Shown here piece after piece: positions 16,000 through 20,477 of a stretch of DNA of 64,000 nucleotides. Below the pieces are notes generated by a model. It did not search any database and had not been told where the DNA came from. It worked only from the letters and a program-made list of their open reading frames with translations. The stretch comes from Hymenobacter translucens. GTDB taxonomy: Bacteria; Bacteroidota; Bacteroidia; Cytophagales; Hymenobacteraceae. The stretch lies in assembly GCF_020685205.1 (NCBI RefSeq), contig NZ_JAJERB010000009.1, positions 1-64,000 of the forward strand, in the 5' to 3' direction. Made by a program: the position numbers and the translations under genes. Each line of letters opens with the position of its first letter. The first letter of the stretch is position 1.

Positions 16000-16770
16000 A
16001 TGGCCTCGTTCCTGCAAAAGCTGTTTGGCCGAGGGTCTGGTTCCGGCAACGAGGAGCTGGCCCAGCTCTCCAGCCTGGGTGCCGATATGCACTCCCACCT
16101 GCTGCCCGGCCTCGACGACGGAGCCGAAACCGTGGAGCATTCCATTGAGCTGCTGCGGGAGCTGCGCGACCTGGGGTTCCGAAAGCTGGTGATGACGCCG
16201 CACGTGATGGGCGACTTCTACAAAAACACGCCGGAAGGCATCCGGGAGGCCCTGGCCCGCATGCAGACGGCGGCCGAGGAAGCGGGTATCACGGATATGG
16301 TGCTGGAGTGCGCCGCCGAGTACTACCTCGACGAGTGGTTTGCCGGTAAGCTGGAGGCTGCCGAGCCCCTGCTCAGCTTTGGGGGCGACCAGCGCTATGT
16401 GCTGTTTGAGACGTCCTACATGAACGAGCCGTTCAACTTCGCCGACACGGTTTTTCAGCTTAAGGCCAAAGGGTACCGGCCGGTGCTGGCCCACCCCGAG
16501 CGGTATACCTACCTGTACGGCCGCTTCGACGAGCTAAAGAAAATCCGGCAAAGCGGCGTGCTGCTGCAGGTTAACCTGAATTCCCTGTCGGGCTACTACT
16601 CGCCCGCTGCCCGCCACGTGGCCGAGAAGCTCATTGATGCCGGAATGGTCGACATGGTAGGGACCGATACGCACCACCGGCGCCACACCCACACGCTGCG
16701 CACCAAGGTGCTGCCCGCCGGCTACCTGAAAAAGCTTCTCGCCCTGCCGCTGCTGAATAGCTCTCTATAG
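16000..16770 (+). CDS. CpsB/CapC-type tyrosine-protein phosphatase (PHP fold)
   Basis: 256 residues of the PHP-like family. Metal-binding motifs are visible: DMHSHLLPGLDDGAET near residues 29-43, MTPHVMGDFY, AHPERYTY and GTDTHHRR near the C-terminus. CpsB-type enzymes are manganese-dependent and dephosphorylate tyrosines in the tail of the partner BY-kinase. It starts 33 nt after the kinase gene, so it is almost certainly co-transcribed. Its TAG stop is the first base triplet of an inverted-repeat element. Confidence 0.9.
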   Translation: MASFLQKLFGRGSGSGNEELAQLSSLGADMHSHLLPGLDDGAETVEHSIELLRELRDLGFRKLVMTPHVMGDFYKNTPEGIREALARMQTAAEEAGITDMVLECAAEYYLDEWFAGKLEAAEPLLSFGGDQRYVLFETSYMNEPFNFADTVFQLKAKGYRPVLAHPERYTYLYGRFDELKKIRQSGVLLQVNLNSLSGYYSPAARHVAEKLIDAGMVDMVGTDTHHRRHTHTLRTKVLPAGYLKKLLALPLLNSSL

Positions 16771-16917
16771 GTCTTAGGAGCTTAGGTCTTGGATCATACG
16801 CGCGGACCTTCCCGGAAAGCCTGATGCCATGTGTCCGCTACGAGCCCCCGACCACTGTACTCCACTACTTGTTACCGAACGGACATTACACCCCAAAGCC
16901 TAAGTCCCTAAGCCCTA
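16768..16917 (+). repeat. Stop-codon-anchored inverted-repeat element A
   Basis: The left arm (16770-16792, words CTTAGGAGCTTAGG) begins at the phosphatase TAG. The right arm (16893-16917, words CCTAAGTCCCTAAGCCC) is its imperfect reverse complement, about 18 of 23 positions by eye. The ~100-bp interior shows no gene. It resembles elements B (19426-19641) and C (25989-26111). Confidence 0.6.
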
Positions 16918-16921
16918 CTAC

Positions 16922-17941
16922 ATGATTTTCGTTACCGGCGGCAGCGGCCTGATTGGCAGTTTTCTGATTCCGGCCCTGGTAGGGCAGGGGTTGGCCGTGC
17001 GCGCGCTGTACCGGAAAACCATTCCCCCGATTGAGGCGGCCGGCCAGGTGGAGTGGCTGGAAGGCGACCTGCGTGACCCCGGGCTGATGCGGGAGGCGCT
17101 GCAGGATGTAACCCACGTATTTCATTGCGCCGGTATCGTGTCCTACGCCCCGCAGGACGCGGAGCTGCTGCAGCAGGTGAATGTGGAAGGCACCGGCACG
17201 CTCGTGGACGCCTGCCTCGAGCGGCCCGGCATCCGGCTCTGCCACGTGTCGTCGGTGGCGGCGCTGGGGGGCGGGGCGTCCCGGGCCGAGGGCGAGGCCG
17301 CCCGGCCCGTGATGCTCGACGAAAACGCGAAGTGGGACCTGGGCGCCGAGCACGCCGCCTATGCCACCTCCAAGTACCTGGGCGAGCTGGAAGTATGGCG
17401 GGGCGTGTCGGAAGGGCTGCAGGCCGTCATCGTAAACCCCTCGGTGGTGCTGGGCCCGGCCGACTGGCAGCGCAGCAGCACCCGCCTGTTTCGGTATGCC
17501 TACGACGAGCATACGTTTTACACGCCGGGCAGCATCAACTTCGTGGACGTGCGCGACGTGGTGGCCTTTATGCTGCACCTGGCCCTGAAAACCGACATTT
17601 CCGCCGAGCGGTACGTGCTGAGCGCCGAGCCGGTGCCCTTGTACCAGTTTCTGAAGGAAGCCGCCACCTGCTTTGGCAAGAAGCCGCCCACCACCGTCGT
17701 GCCCGACTGGGCCGCGGAAATTATCTGGCGCCTTGAGCACGCCCGCTCGGTGCTGACCGGGGCCCGACCCCTCATCACCAAGGACACGGCCCGCGCTGGC
17801 CGCAATGACCTGATTTACCGGACCGATAAAGTGCGGGCCGCCACCGGACTCACGTTCCGGCCCCTGGCCGAAACCATCCGATGGTGCTGCGCCGGGCTTT
17901 TGGCGAACGAGTCCAGGCAAAGCACGGTTATTGTATCTTAA
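16922..17941 (+). CDS. NAD(P)-dependent epimerase/dehydratase (extended SDR)
   Basis: 339 residues. The Rossmann glycine motif VTGGSGLIGSFL is at the N-terminus, then GDLRDPGLMREAL, HCAGIVSYAP, and the active-site Tyr-x-x-x-Lys as YATSKYLGE. The C-terminal part resembles 3-beta-hydroxysteroid dehydrogenase or dihydroflavonol-reductase-like members rather than a classical sugar epimerase. The substrate is unknown. It starts 5 nt after element A, so a transcript from the exopolysaccharide genes could continue into it. Confidence 0.85.
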   Translation: MIFVTGGSGLIGSFLIPALVGQGLAVRALYRKTIPPIEAAGQVEWLEGDLRDPGLMREALQDVTHVFHCAGIVSYAPQDAELLQQVNVEGTGTLVDACLERPGIRLCHVSSVAALGGGASRAEGEAARPVMLDENAKWDLGAEHAAYATSKYLGELEVWRGVSEGLQAVIVNPSVVLGPADWQRSSTRLFRYAYDEHTFYTPGSINFVDVRDVVAFMLHLALKTDISAERYVLSAEPVPLYQFLKEAATCFGKKPPTTVVPDWAAEIIWRLEHARSVLTGARPLITKDTARAGRNDLIYRTDKVRAATGLTFRPLAETIRWCCAGLLANESRQSTVIVS

Positions 17942-18024: not shown

Positions 18025-19428
18025 ATGAGAATGAATGAGAACTTTGAGGACCGGGAAGAAGTGCTGAGCACTGTGCGTCGTTTCGAGCACATGCTGGAGC
18101 ACAACGAACCCGTCTTTTTCGACCTGGCCGATTTTGAAACCATCATTGACCACTATACCAATACCAGCCAGTACGATAAGGCCCTGCAGGCCTGTGAGGC
18201 CGCTATTGCGCAGTACCCGTTTTCAACTGAGATTCTGATTGACCGCTCCCAGGTGCTGGCCATGAAAGGCGAGTACACGGCCGCATCCCAGCAGATCGAG
18301 GACGTGGCCCAACTGGACCCCGACAACCCCGACGTGGCCGTCACCCGGGGCATCATCGCCACCCAGCGCACTGAGTTTGCCGAGGCCGTTGCCTACTTCA
18401 AGCAGGCCCTGGAGCGCGCCCCCGACCGCGACGACATCTACTTCAACCTGGCCCTGGCCTACCAGAGCTGGCAGAAGTTTAAGAGCGCGGCCAAGTACTA
18501 CAAGCAGAGCCTGCGCCTGAACCCCGACAACGAGGTGGCGGTGCAGGAGCTGCTCTACTGCCTGGAAGTAACCGAGCGGCTCGACAAAAACCTCGACTTC
18601 TTCCGGCACTTCACCGACGAAGACCCGTACTCGGTGATTGCCTGGTTTAACCTGGGCCAGGCGTATCATCGCGCCCTGAAGTACGACGAAGCCGTGGCGG
18701 CCTTTGAGTACGCCATCCTCATCGACCCCAAATTCTACGAGGCCCACGCGTTCCTGGCCAGCACCTACGTAAGCCAGGAAAAGTACCGCGAGGCCATTGA
18801 GGAGTTTCACCTCAGCTACGAGCCCGGCACCCCCACGGCCGAGGCCCTGTGCAACATCGGGGAGTGCCACGAGAAGCTGGCCGAGTGGGATGCGGCCCGC
18901 CGCAACTACCAGAAGGCCGTGGACCTGGACCCCGAGATGGACGAGGCCTGGTTTGGCATCGGAGTGGTGCTGAATGCCCAGGACAAGTGGTTTGAGGCCA
19001 TTCACTTCTTCCGCAAGGCCGTGGCCCTCTACAACGAGAGCGTGGAGTACTGGCTGGCCCTGGCTGCGGCCGAGTACCAGCTGGGCAACATCGTCAGCGC
19101 CATCGAGGCCTACGAGCAGGCCACCCAGGTGGCACCGGACAGCAAGGACGCCTGGCTGAACTGGAGCATCATTCTGTATGAGCAGGGCAACTTCGACGGG
19201 GCCATTGACCTGATGCGCAACGCGGTGGAGATTCAGCCCGCCGAGGCCGAGCTGCACTACCGGCTGTGTGCCTACCTGCTGGCCGCCGGCCGCTACCGCG
19301 AAGCCTACGAGAACCTGGAAAATGCCCTGGTACTCGACTTCGACAAGCACCGCCTGCTGTTCGAGTACTTCCCGGAGCTGGAGTCGCAGCGCGCCCTGGC
19401 CCGGCTGATTGACCAGTACCGGAAGTAG
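18025..19428 (+). CDS. Tetratricopeptide repeat protein
   Basis: 467 residues from ATG 18025 (ATG 18031 also fits); the frame is open further upstream, but that would overlap the epimerase. Residues ~45 to the end form consecutive TPR units with the Ala/Gly-8, Tyr-11, Ala-20 and Pro-32 pattern, for example KALQACEAAIAQYPFSTEIL and AVAYFKQALERAPDRDDIYF. There is no signal peptide, so it is probably a cytoplasmic scaffold. Its partner is unknown. The TAG stop opens element B. Confidence 0.88.
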   Translation: MRMNENFEDREEVLSTVRRFEHMLEHNEPVFFDLADFETIIDHYTNTSQYDKALQACEAAIAQYPFSTEILIDRSQVLAMKGEYTAASQQIEDVAQLDPDNPDVAVTRGIIATQRTEFAEAVAYFKQALERAPDRDDIYFNLALAYQSWQKFKSAAKYYKQSLRLNPDNEVAVQELLYCLEVTERLDKNLDFFRHFTDEDPYSVIAWFNLGQAYHRALKYDEAVAAFEYAILIDPKFYEAHAFLASTYVSQEKYREAIEEFHLSYEPGTPTAEALCNIGECHEKLAEWDAARRNYQKAVDLDPEMDEAWFGIGVVLNAQDKWFEAIHFFRKAVALYNESVEYWLALAAAEYQLGNIVSAIEAYEQATQVAPDSKDAWLNWSIILYEQGNFDGAIDLMRNAVEIQPAEAELHYRLCAYLLAAGRYREAYENLENALVLDFDKHRLLFEYFPELESQRALARLIDQYRK

Positions 19429-19641
19429 GGACTTGGGGTCTTGGATGGTTAGGGTCTTGGATTTTGTTCTGTACCTGTTCGTCAGGACGACATTCAGGGC
19501 CCTAAGTTCCCAAGACCCTTTTCGCATATATAGAATTCGGGCGTACTTTTGGCGCTCTGCCTTTTTGCGTTTGAAGCTGGTTGGACGACATCTGACACCC
19601 CAAGACCCCAACCATCCAGGACCCCAACCATCCAAGACCCC
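19426..19641 (+). repeat. Stop-codon-anchored inverted-repeat element B
   Basis: The left arm (19435-19462) and right arm (19614-19641) are reverse complements over 28 nt with two mismatches (core GGTCTTGGATGGTT). The right side has a tandem 15-nt unit (GACCCCAACCATCCA twice), and a further partial arm CTAAGTTCCCAAGACCC lies inside at 19502-19518. It fills nearly the whole TPR-comA gap. No coding sequence is evident. Confidence 0.75.
19544..19551 (+). promoter_or_regulatory. Possible -7 element within element B
   Basis: TACTTTTG matches TAnnTTTG about 95 nt before the comA-like ATG. No good -33 TTG is present. Confidence 0.35.
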
Positions 19642-19646
19642 GAAGA

Positions 19647-20477
19647 ATGAATTATCACCTCAATCAACTTCCCGAACGCACGCCCAAGCCGCGCGAGCAA
19701 GGCTTCACCATGGTCATGGACAAAGGCCTGAGCGTACGGGAAGTGGAAGACTTTCTGGAAGTAGGTGCCGAGTACACCGACATTGTCAAGCTGGGCTGGG
19801 CTACGTCCTACGTGGCCCCCAACCTGAAGCGCAAGCTGGAAGTCTACAAGGAGGCCGGCATTCCGGTGTACTTTGGGGGGACGCTGTTCGAGGCCTTCAT
19901 TATTCGCAATCAGTTCGACGACTACCGCCGCCTCCTGGGCGAGTTCGGCATGGAGTACGCCGAAGTGTCGGACGGCTCCATCGACCTGCAGCACGACCAG
20001 AAGCTGGAGTTTATCCGCACTCTGGCCCGGGACGTGAAGGTGCTGTCGGAAGTAGGCTCCAAGGATGCGGAAAAGATTATTCCGCCCTACAAGTGGATTT
20101 CACAGATGCAGACCGAGCTCGAAGCCGGCGCCATCAAGGTAATCGGCGAAGCCCGGGAGGCCGGCAACGTGGGCTTGTTCCGCAGCACCGGGGAGGTGCG
20201 TTCCGGTCTGGTGGAGGAAATCCTGACCAAGGTGCCCTTTGAAAAGATCCTCTGGGAAGCCCCGCAGAAGTCGCAGCAGGTGTGGTTTATCAAGATGCTG
20301 GGCGCCAACGTAAACCTGGGCAACATCGCGCCCAACGAAATCGTGAGCCTGGAAACCATCCGACTGGGTTTGCGCGGCGACACCTTCACCCATTTCCTCG
20401 ACATGGACGCGGTGGACGAGATGTTCCGGCCCGAAGTTAAAACCGGCAAGCCCGGTACCTCCATGCCTCGGGGCTAG
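19647..20477 (+). CDS. Phosphosulfolactate synthase homologue (ComA family)
   Basis: 276 residues, full length for the family. Recognisable segments are GFTMVMDKGLSVREVEDFL, DIVKLGWATSYV, GIPVYFGGTLFEAF, EVSDGSIDL and the TIM-barrel C-terminus VSLETIRLGLRGDTF. ComA adds sulfite to phosphoenolpyruvate to give phosphosulfolactate, the first step of coenzyme M synthesis in methanogens. Bacteroidota do not make coenzyme M. A role in sulfolactate, cysteate or sulfonolipid metabolism is an inference. No comB/comC-like gene is adjacent. A terminator follows. Confidence 0.85.
   Translation: MNYHLNQLPERTPKPREQGFTMVMDKGLSVREVEDFLEVGAEYTDIVKLGWATSYVAPNLKRKLEVYKEAGIPVYFGGTLFEAFIIRNQFDDYRRLLGEFGMEYAEVSDGSIDLQHDQKLEFIRTLARDVKVLSEVGSKDAEKIIPPYKWISQMQTELEAGAIKVIGEAREAGNVGLFRSTGEVRSGLVEEILTKVPFEKILWEAPQKSQQVWFIKMLGANVNLGNIAPNEIVSLETIRLGLRGDTFTHFLDMDAVDEMFRPEVKTGKPGTSMPRG

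Follow-up and report, generated by a model that had tools for sequence, protein, structure and literature searches.

Inward-facing octamer arrays at the borders of intergenic gaps in Hymenobacter and their possible role as RNA hairpins

The intergenic element that separates a TPR-repeat protein gene from comA in a Hymenobacter genome, referred to here as Element B, is one copy of a dispersed repeat family whose unit is the degenerate octamer (R)GGGTCTTR. The members of this family recur with an eight-nucleotide period, lie at the borders of gaps between genes and face inward from those borders. In one conserved gap, rpsG-fusA, a hairpin is kept across the genus while the words that compose it are exchanged, and the hairpin is absent in four other genera. 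Our favored reading, to which we would give a probability of roughly 0.55, is that Element B consists of gap-bordering octamer arrays belonging to a Hymenobacter-wide, inward-facing class, that the RNA hairpin formed by such arrays is what is selected, and that it serves as a terminator in this gap. The window analyzed is a 64-kb stretch of contig C28 in a 4.96-Mb genome (G000). Gene calls and motif scans were made with simple scripts of our own.

Results

The features of the TPR-comA gap are listed in Table 1. A preliminary description of this DNA reported 28-nt arms at 19435-19462 and 19614-19641 that match with two differences, and these were recovered as an inverted repeat of 93% complementarity with 151 nt between the arms. 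It was also correct that the left array opens on the TPR-gene stop codon, that the element spans the comA leader region (the right array ends 5 nt before the ATG) and that a TAnnTTTG-like site, which we take to be a "-7 element," is present as TACTTTTG. The unit in the right arm, given earlier as 15 nt, is indeed tandem, but its length is 16 nt, or two octamers, with copies at 19600, 19616 and 19632. Absent from that description was an extra unit, CCAAGACCC, at 19510-19518, which is followed by TTTT. The region of this unit and the left arm form a second, shorter inverted repeat (36 nt, 72%).

Table 1. Features of the TPR-comA gap and of a second octamer-bordered gap in the window
Feature	Position	Strand	Remarks
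Left array of second element (TAGGTCTTAGGAGCTTAGGTCTTGG)	16768-16792	+	Opens on TAG stop of CpsB/CapC-like gene
Right array of second element (CCTAAGTCCCTAAGCCCT region)	16895-16916	-	Just before epimerase ATG at 16922
TPR-repeat protein gene	18031-19428	+	Pfam TPR_2, E 1.3e-55; its TAG stop (19426-19428) supplies the opening bases of the left array
Left (trailer) array, TAGGGACT-TGGGGTCT-TGGATGGT-TAGGGTCT-TGGAT	19426-19462	+	Inward facing
Inner array copy (CAGGGCCCTAAGTTCCCAAGACCC region)	19495-19518	-	Pairs with left array as local hairpin
TTTT after hairpin	19519-19522	+	Intrinsic-terminator-like tail of TPR gene
TACTTTTG	19544-19551	+	TAnnTTTG-type, presumed -7 element of conserved promoter-like block (about 19529-19551)
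Right (leader) array of comA	19598-19641	-	Units 19600-19615, 19616-19631, 19632-19641
comA, (2R)-phospho-3-sulfolactate synthase	19647-20477	+	PF02679, E 5.6e-93

The segment 19427-19525 has a predicted fold of -51.8 kcal/mol, the stem of which ends at 19518 with TTTT next to it, and it is in sequence what an intrinsic terminator consists of, namely a hairpin and then a short 4-T tail. For the whole 221-nt element the fold z-score was -4.9 on the plus strand and -5.6 on the minus strand, and none of 200 shuffles equalled it on either strand. Rfam covariance models gave no match over 19000-20000 with E up to 1. A stock scan returned one sigma-70-type promoter-like site at 19507-19536 (0.1 expected), which differs from the promoter block proposed here, and one terminator-like site at 19539-19557 (0.6 expected), while the proposed terminator at 19518 was not flagged. 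The scanned terminator-like site is the sole one in the gap and overlaps the conserved promoter-like block; in several relatives, an ACGCCC-type symmetry lies directly 3' of GTACTTTT.

The ComA protein was found in all 61 genomes searched, and 32 orthologous TPR-comA gaps, the window's own among them, were read: those of the 30 genomes with loci and those of G003 and G035. The sequence GTACTTTT(G/A) recurs in 25 of these 32 gaps, where it marks a conserved promoter-like block in mid-gap. The block was found also in relatives that have no arrays, and thus it is not carried by Element B; the earlier proposal of a promoter carrier holds as far as the presence of a promoter-like block in the gap, and fails as to its being carried by the element. 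A hairpin followed by a T run, defined as a stem of at least 9/10 pairs and then a T run in the first 160 nt of the gap, was present in 27/32 gaps against 2.2 expected from shuffles, with a few of the 27 extending into the promoter block and possibly spurious, and the letters of these hairpins differ widely. The terminator also proposed for the element is therefore supported for the left half, with its stem to 19518 and TTTT, although the stock scan marks 19539-19557 instead. In 16/32 gaps a YAAGNNC-type unit was present no more than 45 nt from the ATG, and in 5/32 a GGGTCTTR-type unit no more than 50 nt from the stop. The comA gap of G031 holds a long terminator-like hairpin whose two arms repeat four different octamers in register.

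A second octamer-bordered gap is present in the window at 16768-16916, between a CpsB/CapC-like gene and an epimerase gene, and its left array begins on a TAG stop as does that of Element B.

A genome search, as had been proposed in the preliminary description, did find further, dispersed copies, and what is common to them is the octamer arrays alone. When at most 3 mismatches were allowed, the 25-base pattern GGGTCTTGGATGGTTNNGGTCTTGG had 13 matches in the genome, three of them in Element B, with none for the reversed control; GGGTCTTGGAT occurred exactly in 28 copies, again three in Element B, with none for its control. The whole genome was needed for this purpose because the repeat count inside the 64-kb window alone is not significant (4 matches, a number reached by 13 of 100 shuffles). 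Among 200 genomes of the family, an exact 17-base double octamer was found in 36, and all controls gave 0. Of these 36 genomes, 35 belong to the same genus and one (G073) to the sister genus g26.

The position of the octamers was analyzed in a 464-kb sample composed of C28:1-224000, which includes the window, and C11:100001-340000. The C11 part was picked where matches were already known, and octamer density in the sample is thus biased upward; the shares of intergenic and inward units should be less affected than density. Of 67 octamers, 42 were intergenic (21/34 in the C28 half and 21/33 in the C11 half), while 14-15% of the DNA is intergenic (p 3e-19), and the reversed motif gave 9/57. In 13 gaps, 41 of the 42 intergenic octamers pointed into the gap when seen from the closer gene border (p 2e-11). 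The sole outward unit is the inner unit of the window at 19510. With Element B left out, 37/62 octamers were intergenic and 37/37 of these inward.

The layout was also examined in 107 distinct gaps, which were collected from loci holding an octamer. Left-type units lay in their own half of the gap in 195/200 cases and right-type units in 286/300. The outermost unit had a median distance of 7-8 nt from the gene border, with a median of 8 nt for right units. With respect to the genes, YAAGACCC stands before starts and GGGTCTTR after stops. In the 76 gaps that hold arrays at both borders, 222 of 271 steps between units (steps up to 40 nt) were of 8 nt and 33 of 16 nt. Both arrays were present in 66 of 93 codirectional gaps, the leader array alone in 22 and the trailer array alone in 5. 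Arrays also border divergent (11/107) and convergent (3/107) gaps. The octamer-bordered gaps include atpF-atpH, accB-accC, nuoK-nuoL and rpsG-fusA, names that are our own reading of the sequences.

The octamer is not the sole word in use. The window's genome holds several words as short-word inverted arrays besides the octamer; on C28 and C11, for example, gap-spanning hairpins composed of TTAGTAA heptamers, AAGCTRC heptamers and AGGAGCT-type words were observed. The word AATGAGTG is dispersed in G036 (22+23 copies) and G212 (13+8), with controls of 0, and its units are mostly inward (left 12/12, right 13/17, in 11 gaps). The idea of one dialect per genome was rejected, as the rpsG-fusA gap of both G036 and G212 uses another word and the window's genome has more than one. 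Some dispersed-word counts are inflated by tetramer runs, GAGTGAGT, according to our own control. Long GAGT tetramer runs were seen in G143, G221 and G187, on one contig strand in G143 (27 forward, 0 reverse) and G221 (20/0). Upstream of one gene start, at locus L288 of G149, about twelve nearly identical CCTAAGTC octamers form a leader array; this expansion is exceptionally long and looks recent. In many Streptomyces contigs (for example at L113, L116, L122, L139 and L161), GGGTCTTRGG and its complement recur together over about 44-48 nt, which is perhaps a conserved hairpin unrelated to the Hymenobacter octamers. Among the 80 loci listed of the 99 stretches found, 12 were from Hymenobacter.

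The rpsG-fusA and nuoK-nuoL gaps were chosen for study since some species carry octamers there. For rpsG-fusA, 91 genomes of the genus were searched, 89 had the protein, and G167 was added from an earlier locus to give 90 gaps. None of the 90 is empty, and their length is 93-120 nt. The fold z-score has a median of -6.5 and lies below -2 in 88/90. As a control, five Hymenobacter genomes supplied 123 further codirectional gaps, 80-130 nt long, for which the median is -1.7, with 54 below -2. The 5' foot of the hairpin stands a median of 3 nt after the stop codon (10-90%: 3-6) and the 3' foot a median of 12 nt before the start codon (9-17). The words in these arms vary by species group and include GGGTCTTR (at least one unit in 35/90), AATGAGTG, TTTAGCGGGTTGATGAG, GAGGTAATGAGGTGAT and others. 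Among lags 5-12, autocorrelation was best at lag 8 in 67/90 gaps and at lag 7 in 15; in the gaps without a GGGTCTTR-type word, lag 8 was best in 47/55. The same lag was not seen in gaps at large, in 100-kb samples where de novo word counts were too small to read.

The outgroup for rpsG-fusA comprised 28 genomes: 20 belong to the family of Hymenobacter, with 5 from the sister genus and 15 from four further genera, and 8 represent other families within the order. A hairpin gap of 98-99 nt is present in 5/5 genomes of sister genus g26. In the four other genera of the family the gap is 2-3 nt in 15/15 genomes, and it is 2-17 nt in five of the eight genomes of other families (fusA was out of reach in G046 and G037, and G039 is left out).

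Changes on both sides of a pair were counted at rpsG-fusA within clusters of similar sequences, with the structure taken from one sequence in each, and the partners were slid by 1-3 columns as a control. Over eight clusters the sum was 22 such changes, against 1-7 for slid partners and a mean of 10.7 for column shuffles, with 77-98% of cells paired. Depending on the cluster, anything from 0 to 200 of the 200 column shuffles equalled the real count, and only one cluster exceeded all of them. The test thus gives support in sum and not in each cluster.

In the nuoK-nuoL gap, 16 of 20 Hymenobacter genomes were counted, namely those with the expected NuoL start; G033 and G036 were left out, as were G167 and G191, in which the start is doubtful. 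The minimum free energy was -40 kcal/mol or lower in 14/16 genomes, the exceptions being G212 (-24) and G032 (-10). The hairpins are of unrelated sequence between species: octamers occur in G003, G006, G013, G035, G143 and G181, REP-like palindromes in the window's genome (G000), G131, G139 and G208, and a CCCCACCCC palindrome in G149 and G163. Thus, different kinds of repeat use the same slot. In other genera the gap is 46-85 nt with 0 to -6.4 kcal/mol (6/7 genomes, G060 left out). Three sister-genus genomes gave -30 to -51, where the gap is less certain because the start is of another kind (MAEQ...). REP-like palindromes of the forms GTCATGCTGAGCTTGCCGA... and GTCATCCTGAGC...GAAGGACC were also observed to fill gaps at L478 (the nuoK-nuoL gap of G000), L474, L484, L473, L237 and L286. 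L482 and L490 are the nuoK-nuoL gaps of G149 and G163; an almost perfect palindrome based on CCCCACCCCAACCCCTCCCC reaches about -100 kcal/mol there in less than 130 nt.

Strong hairpins are not the rule in Hymenobacter gaps. In codirectional gaps of 60-150 nt from five Hymenobacter samples, at least 30 gap-spanning pairs were found in 22/183; the corresponding counts in other genera were 2/17 (G060) and 0/23 (G074). At least 22 spanning pairs were found in 52/183 of the Hymenobacter gaps, against 25 in shuffles. The proposal that most Hymenobacter gaps are spanning hairpins was dropped, and the strong hairpin class is a subset, because 22/183 is the share that reaches at least 30 spanning pairs.

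A strand test was based on the expectation that a selected RNA stem should tolerate G.U but not A.C mismatches. At rpsG-fusA there were 244 G.U against 139 A.C; of 25 clusters, only 15 leaned to G.U and 7 to A.C (p 0.13). The 66 octamer gaps gave 115 and 117. The sense strand folded better in 65/90 rpsG-fusA gaps, 19/66 octamer gaps and 48/123 control gaps. Pair counts from RNAalifold were set aside because that program itself favors G.U. Two arms from the same gap matched slightly better than two drawn from different gaps (mean rank about 0.61, p 1e-4 to 7e-4); the loop-side flanks showed no better match within than between gaps (p 0.3). The strand test is mixed. For this reason, selection on an RNA stem is supported at rpsG-fusA, where the strand test is suggestive, and not settled for the other gaps, the strand signal being absent or reversed in octamer gaps.

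Discussion

Selection on the RNA hairpin is the best reading of these results, given a mixed strand test. In nearly every species checked the rpsG-fusA hairpin is kept while its words swap, which hints that the fold rather than the letters is selected. The arrays would turn some gaps into long stem-loops with one foot at the stop codon and the other just before the next start codon. For Element B, the best reading is one of three parts with separate histories: a terminator-like hairpin, an old promoter block and a leader array. The left array, the inner copy at 19495-19518 and TTTT most likely form the intrinsic terminator of the TPR transcript. Transcription of comA would start from the conserved promoter-like block that separates the arrays, which would make the right array its 5' leader. 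In a read-through transcript the leader array could pair with the left array instead and compete with the terminator stem, and the long-range pairing of the arms described earlier would form in that transcript alone. Where the gap lies inside an operon, as at rpsG-fusA and nuoK-nuoL, one gap-wide hairpin may insulate, protect or process the mRNA between cistrons. The molecular consequence would accordingly differ by place, with termination at the comA gap and insulation or stabilization in operons. How words spread between gaps can be guessed at; slippage together with copying of one arm onto the other may be responsible.

The arrays could instead arise from a non-adaptive process at the DNA level, in which slippage expands octamers, template switching at quasi-palindromes copies arms and coding DNA rejects the arrays. 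We regard this explanation as doubtful but worth serious consideration. The lack of a G.U bias in the 66 octamer gaps (115:117) speaks for it, as do the 8-nt spacing (222/271 steps), arms that are somewhat in register within gaps, including the comA gap of G031, and arrays in divergent and convergent gaps. These last gaps also count against an RNA role, for they place two leaders or two trailers on separate transcripts. By itself, however, the process leaves unexplained a near-constant rpsG-fusA hairpin length over 90 genomes with feet at 3 and 12 nt, both-side pair changes above slid controls, and the occurrence of one word in many unrelated gaps. Another explanation is that the octamers are sites, with a footprint of about 8 nt beside start and stop codons, for an RNA-binding regulator or a nucleoid-associated DNA-binding protein. 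The strict orientation, with YAAGACCC before starts and GGGTCTTR after stops, would suit such sites, as would leader arrays that often stand alone (right only in 22 codirectional gaps, left only in 5), and a similar idea was published for TAACTGA repeats before start codons (PMC4679880). At rpsG-fusA, though, the words change from clade to clade while the hairpin stays, which argues against a binder of fixed specificity and makes this explanation very doubtful in our view.

A mobile palindrome of MITE or REP type, inserted between genes as a unit, seems highly improbable. Dispersed copies with inverted arms are what it would leave, and in nuoK-nuoL some species have REP-like palindromes (GTCATCCTGAGC..., GTCATGCTGAGC...) where others have octamer hairpins. 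The copies nevertheless share the octamer arrays and not ends, loop or length, they lack fixed terminal inverted repeats, and in 27/93 codirectional gaps the arrays stand on one border only; the transposon-like (MITE) unit of the preliminary description was rejected as the main explanation on these grounds. At comA, moreover, the promoter-like block that lies between the arrays is present in relatives without arrays. The transposase search covered the Y1_Tnp family (PF01797), for which no match was found in the window's genome or in G181, G035 and G167. It is absent in these 3 of 5 other octamer-rich genomes, and none of the loci of the six matches in the remaining two, G143 and G003, contains octamers. 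An origin from REP and its associated transposases (RAYT) was likewise rejected as the main explanation, for want of a common unit and a Y1_Tnp link and in view of the one-sided arrays. A dedicated spacer system of Hymenobacter and its sister genus, in which inverted arrays are actively written on either side of selected gaps, the stem is selected and clades swap dialects at fixed loci while the stem persists, perhaps by a novel copying activity or dialect-specific binding proteins, is an extension that we consider quite unlikely.

The rpsG-fusA gap offers 95 natural variants of one architecture in different letters, beside genera with a gap of 2-3 nt. Thus, the function of the repeats is directly testable by spacer swaps in one operon. 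Annotators should be aware that an intergenic gap in Hymenobacter may in some cases be structured RNA made of repeats.

Comparison with known systems

The STRR of cyanobacteria are degenerate heptamer arrays scattered between genes, and the octamers resemble them in being degenerate arrays of a short unit between genes. We know of no border-to-border inverted arrangement of STRR. Like repeats of the STRR and TAACTGA kind, the Hymenobacter units are of about 7-8 nt, tandem in several arrays, intergenic and near start codons. Those kinds are direct repeats without structure of their own, while the present ones are inverted pairs, with a median z-score of -6.5 at rpsG-fusA. In the open-access literature searched, no paper on Hymenobacter intergenic repeats, tandem-repeat hairpins or palindromes appeared relevant by title; broader searches led to the TAACTGA work and to papers on REP sequences and translational coupling.

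Dispersed intergenic hairpins are shared with REP/BIME and similar palindromes; REP-associated tyrosine transposases are the subject of PMC2817692. Unlike REP/BIME, the octamer arms are tandem and variable in number, have no common unit and occur in a genome without a Y1_Tnp match. The stem-loops of selective RNA processing and stabilization (SRPS) in Clostridium operons were reported for subunits of protein complexes and were proposed to set transcript stability and stoichiometry (PMC4423207, PMC8219983). Stem-loops between operon genes are common to both systems, in Hymenobacter in nuo, atp, acc and ribosomal operons. The predicted Hymenobacter stems differ from those of SRPS in being made of tandem repeats with clade-specific words.

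The closest published parallel among the papers considered here concerns short intergenic tandem repeats, which appear in print as direct arrays of unclear use (PMC4679880). Up to six TAACTGA copies had no particular structure predicted by themselves (MacGregor 2015, PMC4679880). The TAACTGA and related heptamer repeats resemble the Hymenobacter arrays in that short tandem units are intergenic and often lie several nucleotides upstream of start codons, several words may coexist, and histories are strain-specific (PMC4679880). In Hymenobacter, by comparison, the unit is mostly 8 nt, the arrays are mostly inverted pairs at gap borders that form long hairpins, and the word is exchanged between clades within one conserved gap.
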